A stretch of DNA of 64,000 bases from Bryoerythrophyllum caledonicum (taxonomy: Eukaryota; Streptophyta; Bryopsida; Pottiales; Pottiaceae): contig OZ020525.1 of NCBI GenBank assembly GCA_963971425.1, positions 3,269,560 through 3,333,559 on the forward strand, written 5' to 3'. The notes under the pieces are model-generated. The model was given only the letters and a program-made list of their open reading frames with translations. It made no database searches and was not told where the DNA came from. Within the stretch, counting starts at the first letter, position 1, and the number at the start of each line of letters is the position of its first letter. A program made the position numbers and the translations under genes. This document shows, in pieces, positions 43,548 through 61,141 of this stretch.

Positions 43548-43574
43548 GGAGACATTAAAACGAACCCGAGACCT
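43548..43574 (+). other. Degenerate 2A-like motif (GDIKTNPRP)
   Basis: Preceded by LLILE and followed by MPNVLKRQPTSH. The essential Gly of N-P-G-P is Arg and the Glu is Lys, so skipping should be lost. It is the upstream member of a ~342-bp tandem duplication whose second member carries the intact motif. Confidence 0.7.
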
Positions 43575-43889
43575 ATGCCAAATGTGCTAAAAAGACAACC
43601 CACATCACACATGGAAAACGCCAAAACATACTTTATTCCTAGCACCACCAAACTAACCCGGAATATCAACATTTGCACCTCTACTAAAACATTTGCACCT
43701 CTACTAAAACCCGCGCATACATTAAACCACTGCCATAACATGATATATACACATGTTGCTCAACACATTTACCAGCAACGTGCACAAGACTTTAATAACA
43801 TAACAAAGCCTCAAAAAATTATACAAAAAACAAAAACTTTAAAATACAGCACTAAACATACATATCACAAACTCCTACTACTTCTAGGA

Positions 43890-43916
43890 GGAGACATAGA
43901 AACCAACCCGGGACCC
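43890..43916 (+). other. 2A-like ribosome-skipping motif (GDIETNPGP)
   Basis: Reads LLLLLGGDIETNPGP then MPNILKRH. It fits the D-[V/I]-E-x-N-P-G-P consensus exactly, with the Leu-rich stretch expected upstream. Known function: the nascent peptide makes the ribosome skip the Gly-Pro bond, so one frame gives two proteins. Here the break would free the ORF2 protein from the linker-encoded peptide. The downstream frame in this copy is soon interrupted. Confidence 0.85.
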
Positions 43917-44554
43917 ATGCCTAATATACTAAAAAGACACCCTACATCACATAACAAAAATGCCAAAATATACTTCATAAAATAAAATTACAACCGGAAT
44001 ATGGACACATTGCAAAAACCTTTGCACTTTTCTTAAAAAACACACATACATTACACCACATACATAACACTACACACCCAAACATTGCCCAATACATACA
44101 ACAAAAAAATACGCATCCACCACCCCACATTCTATATGGCCTAGTAGTCACTACTCATCCACACATAGATGAATGTAACCATCTCCTAAATCCACAAAAT
44201 TTGAACACAATTACATGGACCAATACACTTCTACAAACTTTACTAAACTTACAAAATCCACCAGAACGACACATTTACACTCCGCACCCCTATAAAAAGT
44301 TTCTTGAAGACAACCAAAATATTATAAACCATGAAAACTCAATACATAAGGAACTATATGACTTTTTACATAGTCAAACCATACCTCCCTCAAATGAAAC
44401 AATAAAACTAAAATTCCCTTACCTCCTTAACAATCTCATCAATGAATCACTAAAATGTTGAGACCCTATACTAGAATACACCCACCCACCCACCTCCACC
44501 ACTCCCTACATCCCTCCACAAAATCAAAACATTAGATCAAATCAAGAAAATACA

Positions 44555-45403
44555 TACATAATCACATGGAATGCCTCCACTCTAAACACTGCCCTTCCTA
44601 GCTTACAAACTTTGGTCACGCACACTAATACACCACCAGCCCTCATAGTTATACAAGAAATAAAATTATCCGCCACAAAATCTACAAAATATATACAAAA
44701 TATATTTCAAGACTATAAATTCATCTTTAACAATACACATGCACTTACAAGATGCATTGAACAACGGAGACCATACACACCGAGCCACGGTGGCCTCCTT
44801 ACACTAATACACAAAAAATATGCCTTCCCGGGCAACATCAACAAAATTCCTACCCGAATGCACATATCACCTTACATTCAAATAATCAAAATTACTAATC
44901 ACCCACTACAACCATGGTTAATCTTTCACATGTATATGCCATCTCATCCTGAAGATACTAGATTTATCATAGACATACAAAACACTATTACATCTCAAAT
45001 TAATAATAACCCCAATCACACATACCTATTATGTGGAGACTTCAACAGAGACATAGCATTAATTGGTCATGAAAATGGAAATCATAAGACCCCCCCTCAA
45101 ACCATTGATTACCAATGGCACCGCTTCACAGAAAACTTAAACTTCACTTACATCAAAACCGATACGCAATTCTCTAGACAAGGTGGCTATAATTATAGTG
45201 ATTGGAGTCTAATAGATGGATTCTATATAAATACAAACAACAATACACAATGCACCTCTACAATAAACAAGGATGTTATTCTCAACTCGGACCACTCACC
45301 TATACAATTGCACATCCCAAATAACACATTAATTAATAGAACTCCTACAATCCCAAACAATGACACTATACGCATACTCACCCCATTCCAAAAGACAATA
45401 TAG
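44555..45403 (+). pseudogene. AP-endonuclease domain of LINE ORF2
   Basis: Shows the APE motifs in order: TWNAS (catalytic Asn), VIQEIKL (metal-binding Glu), MYMPSHPEDTRF, LLCGDFNRD (Asp/Asn), WSLIDGFYI and LNSDHSPI (Asp/His). In active elements this domain nicks the target DNA. The frame is open from 44462 to the stop at 45403; motif residues are all present. Confidence 0.85.
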
Positions 45404-45540
45404 AAAAATTCATCACAAAATTCTTTGAAAAAAACTCCATACAAATAGACTCCCTCATAAATACTCTTGAAAACAATAGTCAACTACCACAAATACAATG
45501 GCAAGAAGCATGCCACACCCTAGACAAACTCATAAATAAA

Positions 45541-58428: not shown

Positions 58429-60009
58429 ATGTCTTCAGCTCAAGATATTGCCACCTCCTCCAAGCGCCTTTTTGTTGATGTGGTAGAGGGAAATCCGGTC
58501 AATACGAGTCAAAATGTCTTGTTTATCACAAACACCACCCAGAAAAAAGTGAGGGCAACTAGTTTGCCTTCCACCGAATTCTGGCTGGGTTTTCATGCAA
58601 TGAATACAATTGCGAAGAAAAATGGTAATATGAAAATACCAATAGTAGCTATTGAAGACTTGGTCAAAAGTGGTCTTAGTACAAAAGAGGCAAGTGAAAG
58701 TTATGGAGCAATCCCTGCTTATCCATTCACTCCGCAAATAGACTGGCCATCTAAAAGAATGGATGGAAAAATGGGTAACCATTTTAATCTCACCCAACTC
58801 CCAAGTGAAGTTGAGGTGAATGAAAATGGCTATGCATTAGACTACCAAGTCTCGATCCACTTCGAGCTTGGGGACCAAGTTTGGGGAAAGGATATTGTCC
58901 TAGATATGGTAAAAAATAGACTCAATGAAATGAAAATCCCTACTGGGACAGACATTGGTGAGCCTATTGCCATTTTTTGCTACCACCAATCCAACAATTG
59001 GAATGGGGTTATTAAAATACACTTAAAAAACCCCGAGATAGACGGTAGAGGATTGTTGAAAGGATTGAGACCCTTCATTCTCATCCTAAATGAAGGTATT
59101 CCACATAAGGGGAAAGTATGCAAAACATACGACTCCCTTGCCTTTTCACACCTCCTCTCAGTCAAAATCTCTGGTCCAAATCTCGCCAATAAAGAATCAT
59201 ATGAACTACATGAAGAAATTGTTAGGGAGAGCTTTGCGAGAGGGCAAGATTTTGAAATTACCGGGGTAGAGAAAAAGGGTTTCTCCGACTTCGCATGGGT
59301 CAAAACTCCCTCCCCGGAACAAGCAGCCAAAGTAAAAGACTACAAAGTCACATTCTCCAATGAGATTTTTGTGCCATGCTTTGCAACTAGAAAAATGGAT
59401 GAGGATGAAATTGCAAAGAAGAATTGTCTTATTCTCATTGCTAAAAATCTCAATAAAACAAAAAATGAAAAGGAACTTGCAAGTGGAATCAAGTCTATAC
59501 TCGGTGAAGAGAATGTGGTTGATATATTCTTCAAACTCGAGCACGGGCGACATGTGGGGACTTGTAACATTGAATGTCTAAACGCTACAGTATACAAAAA
59601 ACACGTCAAACAAAGCAAGAAAATTCATGGAAAGTATGTCATGTTCACTCCCCACCCTAAAAGTTTAGATGGAAGTAATAAACCTAATTCGGATGAACTT
59701 GCAAGATTAGGGTTTTCAGATGTGAACGCCGCAGTAGCAAATGCCGTGATTGCCATGGAGAATGGGCCAAACAAGGGCAATGGGGTCACCTTGGAGCAAC
59801 TTCGGAAGGAAATGAAGACAATGAAGGGAGAGATTGTACAAGAGGCAAGACAATATGCCGATATGGTACAAGCAAACACGGTAAAATCTCTCCGAGGTGA
59901 AATATCAACCCTTCGATCCCAACTCATCCAAACCATCATGGCGGCAGAATCCCAAGCATCGGAAAGAGAGCAACAGGCTATCGAGGGCAAGATGGACATG
60001 TCAAACTAG
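58429..60009 (+). CDS. LINE ORF1 protein, intact (RRM-like plus coiled coil)
   Basis: 526 residues from ATG 58429 (MSSAQDIATSSKRLF). The middle (residues ~45-220) is a conserved family-specific region seen also at 41.2-41.7 kb: FWLGFHAM, HFNLTQLP, YQVSIHFE. Residues ~334-415 resemble an RRM-like fold: LILIAKNL (RNP2-like), a helix, VDIFFKLEHGRHVGTCNIEC (RNP1-like strand) and KYVMFTPHP. The last ~70 residues are an Glu/Lys/Gln-rich coiled coil, ending DMSN. Expected role: trimer or oligomer forming RNA chaperone of the LINE RNP. The frame is uninterrupted, so it may be young. The ORF1 start rather than the earlier upstream Mets is chosen because similarity and protein-like composition begin here. 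Confidence 0.75.
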   Translation: MSSAQDIATSSKRLFVDVVEGNPVNTSQNVLFITNTTQKKVRATSLPSTEFWLGFHAMNTIAKKNGNMKIPIVAIEDLVKSGLSTKEASESYGAIPAYPFTPQIDWPSKRMDGKMGNHFNLTQLPSEVEVNENGYALDYQVSIHFELGDQVWGKDIVLDMVKNRLNEMKIPTGTDIGEPIAIFCYHQSNNWNGVIKIHLKNPEIDGRGLLKGLRPFILILNEGIPHKGKVCKTYDSLAFSHLLSVKISGPNLANKESYELHEEIVRESFARGQDFEITGVEKKGFSDFAWVKTPSPEQAAKVKDYKVTFSNEIFVPCFATRKMDEDEIAKKNCLILIAKNLNKTKNEKELASGIKSILGEENVVDIFFKLEHGRHVGTCNIECLNATVYKKHVKQSKKIHGKYVMFTPHPKSLDGSNKPNSDELARLGFSDVNAAVANAVIAMENGPNKGNGVTLEQLRKEMKTMKGEIVQEARQYADMVQANTVKSLRGEISTLRSQLIQTIMAAESQASEREQQAIEGKMDMSN

Positions 60010-60221
60010 TAGTGCCAAACAACGCTGTAATAGTAAGTAATACAATAGTATATATATATACTACACTATGTATTAAAATAATCGAGAATACTTATTATAA
60101 TAAATTAAAATAAAAAAAATACATAGTATATTTATATACTACGAAATATGGAAATATGGAAAAATAGAAATATGGAAAAAAAAATATATAATAGTATATA
60201 CCAAAACACATACCAAAATAC

Positions 60222-61043
60222 ACAACAACAACAACAACAACAACAACAACAACAACAACAACAACAACAACAACAACAACAACAACAACAACAACAACAA
60301 CAACAACAACAACAACAACAACAACAACAACAACAACAACAACAACAACAACAACAACAACAACAACAACAACAACAACAACAACAACAACAACAACAAC
60401 AACAACAACAACAACAACAACAACAACAACAACAACAACAACAACAACAACAACAACAACAACAACAACAACAACAACAACAACAACAACAACAACAACA
60501 ACAACAACAACAACAACAACAACAACAACAACAACAACAACAACAACAACAACAACAACAACAACAACAACAACAACAACAACAACAACAACAACAACAA
60601 CAACAACAACAACAACAACAACAACAACAACAACAACAACAACAACAACAACAACAACAACAACAACAACAACAACAACAACAACAACAACAACAACAAC
60701 AACAACAACAACAACAACAACAACAACAACAACAACAACAACAACAACAACAACCACAACAACAACCACAACAACAACAACAACCACAACAACAACCACA
60801 ACAACCACAACAACAACAACAACAACCACAACAACAACAACAACCACCACCACCACCACAACAACAACAACAACCACCACAACCACAACCACAACCACAA
60901 CCACAACCACAACCACAACCACCACCACCACCACAACAACAACAACAACCACCACCACAACCACAACCACAACCACAACCACAACCACAACCACAACCAC
61001 AACCACAACCACAACCACAACCACAACCACAATCAACAACAAC
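60222..61043 (+). repeat. (CAA)n tract, ~820 bp, linker of the fourth LINE copy
   Basis: Pure CAA to about 60752 (roughly 175 units), then CAA/CCA mixtures to 61043. All frames on both strands are open, giving poly-Gln, poly-Thr, poly-Asn and, on the reverse strand, poly-Val/Leu/Cys ORFs that are artefacts. The frame that enters the 2A motif reads it mainly as poly-Thr. Confidence 0.95.
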
Positions 61044-61114
61044 TACAACATTCCACACCCCTCCCACTAGTAGATGTAAACACTACTCATTGCAAACTAC
61101 TAATTATACTCTAC

Positions 61115-61141
61115 GGAGACATAGAAACTAATCCCGGCCCC
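61115..61141 (+). other. 2A-like motif (GDIETNPGP), fourth copy
   Basis: KLLIILYGDIETNPGP then MPNVFHNHPKIH. It is in the same frame as the ORF2 that follows and as an open stretch back into the CAA tract. Confidence 0.85.

Follow-up and report, generated by a model that had tools for sequence, protein, structure and literature searches.

The 64,000-nucleotide window of Bryoerythrophyllum caledonicum DNA analysed here (contig OZ020525.1, positions 3,269,560 to 3,333,559 of the forward strand) contains copies of a non-long-terminal-repeat (non-LTR) retrotransposon, a long interspersed nuclear element (LINE) in which the enzyme part of the second open reading frame (ORF2) is directly preceded by a 2A motif of the form DIExNPGP. 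Upstream of the motif lies a hypervariable, repeat-rich linker, which in young copies of the family is open in the frame of the 2A. Judging from how the motif, its context and the linker frame are kept, we consider it very likely that the motif works as a StopGo/2A recoding peptide, which would free the enzyme of this retrotransposon family from the translated linker.

The 2A motif in the window copies

A sequence-only reading of this DNA had reported three GDIE[T/K]NPGP motifs with Leu-rich leads, and all three were found, together with a decayed fourth. In copy A, YHKLLLLLGG-DIETNPGP (43863..43916, + strand; core GDIETNPGP at 43890-43916) runs into the Met of the enzyme part, and a decayed tandem module, QHKILLILEG-DIKTNPRP (43521..43574, +; core GDIKTNPRP at 43548-43574), lies 342 nt 5' of the intact one. 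Copy B holds HCKFSNLLLGG-DIEKNPGP (54186..54242, -; core GDIEKNPGP at 54212-54186), just after which the frame is lost, and copy C holds HCKLLIILYG-DIETNPGP (61088..61141, +; core GDIETNPGP at 61115-61141), again followed by Met. Each 2A, with its Leu-rich lead (HKLLLLLGG in A, CKFSNLLLGG in B and CKLLIILYG in C), precedes the start of the enzyme part. With up to two mismatches allowed, the 2A pattern matched four times in the window, compared to a mean of 0.05 and a maximum of one in 100 shuffles, and the reversed DIExNPGP pattern had no match in the whole host genome; a chance origin of the motifs is ruled out by these two controls.

As the window copies share descent, they do not represent independent events, and the evidence for selection lies at the codon level. 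The cores of copies A and C show four differences, all of them synonymous, and the sole amino-acid change of copy B relative to A and C falls on the free x of DIExNPGP. Across the N-terminal region and endonuclease (390 codons compared between A and C), synonymous sites are saturated while dN is 0.27, indicating that the enzyme evolved under constraint. Copies A, B and C are all broken: none has one open frame with coding sequence on both sides of the 2A, and an AUG-started frame passes through the 2A only in copy A, which owes it to its tandem duplicate. The window alone could therefore not show 2A translation. In all 13 young copies chosen for long frames from the host genome, such a frame is present.

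Retention of the 2A across the family

The host assembly (437 Mb, 894 contigs) contains 1,688 exact DNA matches to DIExNPGP (862 and 826 on the two strands). Among the matches listed, taken from the first ~100 of these places, 27 distinct motif loci (28 rows, L067 repeating L008) all belong to the one retrotransposon family, and all continue with Met and a near-variant of PN(V/I)(L/F)(K/H). With the C-terminal part of copy A, that of a further copy D and the endonuclease of copy C as queries, we obtained 9,659, 7,619 and 4,890 first-look candidates, of which 114, 150 and 90, respectively, were scored; the three sets overlap and their members are candidates rather than confirmed copies. The family is large and was recently active. 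Searches of IMG/VR viral contigs with the C-terminus, endonuclease and reverse transcriptase as queries confirmed no relative.

Retention was assessed in copies located by the enzyme C-terminus or the endonuclease, with the place of the 2A read only afterwards. The lists used hold the best-scoring matches, so that young copies are over-represented. Altogether 58 copies were fetched, 52 of which contained the junction, and the octapeptide was intact in 48 of these 52. It was intact in all five copies with the longest open frames, and in 13 of the 16 junctions among 20 further C-terminus matches taken in table order with one skipped (in four, the 901 bases fetched contained no junction); the three others were a broken frame (L049), NLGP (L051) and a stop (L059). 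Thirteen matches of a second subfamily, eight of them chosen for long open frames, yielded 11 junctions, all intact, and two matches without one; in L095 of this group, Arg replaces the Gly before D next to an intact octapeptide. Finally, 20 endonuclease matches of mixed open length, hand-picked from 90 listed, all contained the junction, with 19 intact octapeptides and one NPCP, and all other core changes among them were synonymous. The codon-level evidence and the anchored copies thus bear out the earlier proposal that the constant core reflects selection: by these sequence comparisons, the 2A is held at the protein level. Absence or random scatter of the motif in other family members had been named as grounds for giving up the idea, and the genome shows the opposite.

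Sequence context of the motif

We compared 26 non-redundant copies drawn from 49 stretches, in which the core is conditioned by the search pattern but the flanks are not. Conservation climbs at Lys -8 (20/26) and spans the Leu stretch, the (G/S/C)G before D (Gly in 25/26) and the core; the residue preceding this Gly is G, S or C, and A once. Further upstream of Lys -8, mean pairwise identity per position is 0.07-0.38. In excerpts of a recent survey, StopGo peptides include an L-rich class that ends in (A/S/C)G before D (PMC12846837). The Lys/Leu/(G/S/C)G lead of the element matches this class and thus provides a suitable StopGo upstream context, next to a core that conforms to D(V/I)ExNPGP.

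An open linker with decayed 2A modules

Linkers of young copies are very variable, at ~160 to 1,400 codons, and fall into an A type and a (CAA)n type. Upstream of the 2A, each of the five young A-type copies has 1,170-1,407 codons in the 2A frame without a single stop, compared to 229-263 stops in the other two frames together, with odds of 10^-52 or less if frames were exchangeable. Base composition is ruled out as the cause, the other frames being full of stops. A-type linkers are composed of T/N/K-rich microsatellites and 123-nt repeats, together with older 2A modules that are now dead: all five copies hold a module ending in NPRP (GDMETNPRP or GDMVTNPRP) 170-172 codons upstream of the 2A, and still further upstream, GELEINPGP occurs in L039 and L043 and GDIEQIPGP in L040. 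Direct-repeat spacings in L039 are all multiples of three, as are 15 of 16 clean indels between copies; Tandem Repeats Finder lists some linker repeat units that are not. In all eight young (CAA)n copies, an uninterrupted frame of 177 to 424 codons including the 2A connects the end of ORF1 with the 2A by way of an Asn tract that differs greatly in length between copies. Pfam searches of the L039 and L042 linkers returned no match. Given these frames, translation of the linker and its removal by the 2A are very probable.

Two further observations concern linker history. In L052, the enzyme is preceded by a tandem pair of intact 2A modules, an intermediate for the idea of duplication and decay. 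In L039-L043, the linker exceeds the enzyme in synonymous divergence in six of six pairs; this, together with differences in ORF1 between the types, hints at a swapping of 5' parts between lineages.

The ORF1-ORF2 junction

ORF1 closes with its own stop, which sits in another frame than the 2A; a 2A that separates ORF1 and ORF2 within one shared frame is thus ruled out. In the young copies, the ORF2 frame is -1 relative to ORF1 in 12 of 13 (exception L041), and its open frame overlaps the end of ORF1 by 16-175 nt, again in 12 of 13 (exception L040). The earlier placement of the 2A at the start of ORF2 needs correction: the motif precedes the enzyme part, but the open frame of ORF2 begins ~160 to 1,400 codons further upstream. 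The sequence CAAAC lies directly before the ORF1 stop in 10 of the 13 copies and one or two codons ahead of it in L041 and L043, and is absent in L040. Inspection by eye revealed no canonical slippery heptamer at the ORF1 stop. Folding of the 100 nt downstream of ORF1 in six copies gave z-scores from -3.4 (L087) to 0.1 (L043), too inconsistent to support a frameshift-stimulating structure.

Three of the (CAA)n copies (L089, L090 and L093) have no ATG in the ORF2 frame before the Met that follows NPGP, and the other five have one 74 codons ahead of this Met. In A-type copies, the first in-frame ATG lies 92-734 nt past the ORF1 stop. On these grounds, ribosomes would likely enter ORF2 of the (CAA)n type by -1 frameshifting or non-AUG (re)initiation, and an AUG inside the linker is a possible entry in the A type. 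ORF1 of L043 gave a single Pfam match, below cut-off.

Enzyme domains and element class

After the 2A, young copies encode, in this order, an apurinic/apyrimidinic endonuclease (APE)-type domain, a reverse transcriptase (RT), a PCIF1-like domain, an RNase H, a zinc finger and a PD..EF..K..KY motif; RT, RNase H and the other motifs appear intact by eye. We propose an enzyme part of ~2,350 residues, predicted to start with Pro-Met-Pro-Asn. The endonuclease of copy C matches that of LINE-1 in the PDB (8.8e-05), while the RT matches R2 best in the PDB (1.6e-31) and LINE-1 not at all at 1e-3. The RNase H (Pfam 1.7e-13 in an intact homologue) keeps its His in an alignment to human RNase H1. As the RT matches R2 far ahead of L1 and this His is kept, a usual plant L1 is ruled out. 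The element had been described as a plant-genome LINE, and it is a LINE in a genome with plant genes, but not of the usual plant L1 kind. GRAS genes, which are distributed among streptophytes, gave 75 matches in the host genome and none in any of 14 control genomes, which indicates a streptophyte host and most likely a land plant.

The zinc finger and PD..EF..K..KY motif were present at all 30 loci examined, which nearly all belong to one subfamily, as well as in copy D. We take this C-terminus to resemble the restriction-like endonucleases (RLEs) of R4, HERO and Dualen, an assignment that is putative by motif only; it had no match in the PDB. The PCIF1-like domain (PF12237, 42.5 bits against a cut-off of 31.1; codons 98-232 in L021) lies between RT and RNase H. 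Its PDB matches to PCIF1 are weak (E 0.9, and E 0.1 behind two designed tetratricopeptide repeat proteins), and what we take to be the catalytic NPPF place reads AHPHN, which makes activity doubtful; an active PCIF1-type methyltransferase is not claimed.

Layout of the window copies

Copies A to D are decayed members of one retrotransposon family. Copy A extends over ~40937-51253 (+). Its ORF1 consists of two open stretches (40937..42783), with homology to other copies from ~41273, and is followed by the hypervariable linker with CA/TA microsatellites (42784..43520). Downstream of the 2A lie the N-terminal region and APE-type endonuclease (44219..45403; Pfam matches just below cut-off), the frameshifted RT region (45364..47528), the PCIF1-like region (approximately 48740..49150, by translation; the Pfam match comes from L044 and L021, two intact homologues), the RNase H region (49381..49893), the C-x2-C-x9-H-x4-C zinc finger and PD..EF..K..KY RLE-type C-terminus (49910..50977, by motif), and a (TTC)n 3' tail (51222..51253). 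A 25-nt tandem repeat of 3.6 copies lies within the enzyme region at 48123-48211. Copy B, on the minus strand, extends from the end of ORF1 to the 3' end with approximate limits (~54740-51254). Copy C (58588-62872, +) comprises ORF1 (58588..60009), ending TCAAACTAG, a linker (60010..61087) that is mostly a (CAA)n-type tract (60222-61050), and, after the 2A, the N-terminal region and APE-type endonuclease with one in-frame stop (61142..62872), the 3' part being lost. Copy D (33447..34868, +) is a C-terminal part only, with RNase H, zinc finger and RLE-type end. The 3' ends of copies A and D (51160-51253 and ~35000-35100) show a short GC-rich hairpin-like stretch and then (TTC)n-type repeats, not poly(A).

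Elsewhere in the window, three successive open stretches at 13814-16798, the middle one with a DUF7869 domain, perhaps represent another mobile element, and two long overlapping ORFs on the minus strand at 2477-6072 have no Pfam match.

Discussion

We infer the following course of translation. Ribosomes would get into the ORF2 frame close to where ORF1 ends or inside the linker. In the (CAA)n type, this would likely occur by -1 frameshifting or non-AUG initiation; in the A type, a linker AUG may also serve. They would then traverse up to ~1,400 repeat-rich codons and reach the 2A. There, the last Gly would not be joined to the next Pro; the linker protein would be released and the enzyme made thereafter. 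Because the 2A would discard everything before it, the length and the sequence of the linker could vary freely provided that the frame is maintained, and upon tandem duplication of the 2A region, the enzyme-proximal 2A would stay intact while older ones decay.

Several observations weigh against this reading. All results come from one genome. The 13 young copies were picked for long frames, so that the absence of stops is partly a matter of choice, although this choice cannot account for zero against 229-263 stops in the A type. The eight (CAA)n copies form three near-identical groups, and their other two frames hold only 19-24 stops, the tract being open in all frames; as such a tract keeps the frame by itself, the open frame says less there. 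In aligned linker blocks, dN/dS is 0.46-0.70 (six pairs), leaving room for some linker function; in the first 330 enzyme codons it is 0.11-0.93 (six pairs, some with few changes). The earlier idea that the 2A frees the enzyme from a junk linker thus agrees with the high variability and open 2A frame of the linker in young copies, but the word junk is only partly right.

One alternative would have ORF2 start at the AUG right after NPGP, with the upstream 2A a remnant or translated by accident. This Met is kept in 25 of the 26 non-redundant copies, and it is the first in-frame AUG in copy C, in the duplicate of copy A and in three of the eight young (CAA)n copies. Moreover, the 27 motif loci, many of them old, have upstream open stretches of 10 to >500 codons, and in 17 of them an in-frame ATG is missing upstream, which also counts against translation through the 2A. 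However, a start at this AUG leaves unexplained why the 2A changes almost only synonymously, why the Leu stretch is conserved and why >1,100 codons are held open upstream, and we consider it very improbable. Retention of the stretch as part of the enzyme N-terminus or as a targeting signal, rather than for skipping, appears very improbable: the Leu-rich lead is hydrophobic and dual 2A/signal peptides have been reported in sea urchin (PMC4981915, in excerpts), but the conserved residues are those required for StopGo, the free position is the same as that of StopGo, and the stretch sits inside an open frame, not at an N-terminus.

The remaining alternative is a version of the StopGo explanation that names the upstream product, and its chances lie inside those of the latter. 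Here, the 2A would mainly split an ORF1-linker-2A-enzyme fusion made by -1 frameshifting near the end of ORF1, as suggested by the prevailing -1 frame, the overlap and the CAAAC at the ORF1 stop. Against it stand the lack of a visible slippery heptamer, the inconsistent folding, the differing frame relation of L041, the missing overlap in L040 and the AUGs within A-type linkers, and the 13 young copies are not independent; we rate it at somewhat less than an even chance. For the StopGo explanation in its most extended form, a land-plant LINE whose ORF2 would be entered without AUG from the end of ORF1 and whose disposable linker would grow by 2A duplication and decay and be discarded at the 2A, we see the balance as even.

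Non-LTR elements with a 2A were reportedly described by Odon in 2013. Relative to the placement of 2A in animal elements, the 2A here comes after a long linker that is built of repeats and contains decayed 2A modules. Trypanosome and animal elements share with ours a 2A of the type D(V/I)ExNPGP in a LINE polyprotein, as far as excerpts of the literature go (PMC4981915), whereas our element resides in a plant host and combines an R2-like RT with RNase H, PCIF1-like and RLE-type parts. In its plan, it resembles Dualen/RandI: Dualen is a dual-endonuclease group with APE plus RLE (PMC4640811), and excerpted descriptions report an R2-side RT and a non-poly(A) 3' repeat (PMC3747384), which our element would share along with the RNase H and, by motif only, the RLE-type C-terminus. 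Dualen/RandI was, however, reported from green algae (two papers, including PMC3747384), while our element occurs at high copy number in a genome with GRAS genes, and neither a PCIF1-like domain nor a 2A is mentioned in the excerpted descriptions. A limited look at the open-access literature found no title on Dualen/RandI in land plants. Plant L1 LINEs share the plant host, two ORFs, APE and RNase H, but the RT of our element matches R2, not L1, in the PDB, and its RNase H lies ahead of the zinc finger and retains a His where the archaeal-like RNase H of plant L1 has Arg (PMC4640811, in excerpts). With viral StopGo/2A, our retrotransposon of a plant genome shares the octapeptide and the L-rich upstream class (PMC12846837).

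The sequence-only reading knew of no described plant LINE with a 2A, and a search limited to open-access papers found none. StopGo functions in plants in artificial constructs, yet excerpts of the 2026 survey report no natural StopGo in plant viruses (PMC12846837). Compared with known 2A-bearing LINEs, ours is new in its host and element type, in its long linker containing dead 2As and, for some copies, in an ORF2 without AUG. If the extended form of our explanation is true, no natural StopGo would have been described in plants before, and the element using it would combine two endonucleases with a PCIF1-like domain. The 2A would provide a reason why runaway repeats are tolerated inside a coding frame, and the family may serve both as a natural experiment on the 2A residues that selection keeps and as a test system for how ribosomes gain access to an ORF lacking an AUG in some copies.

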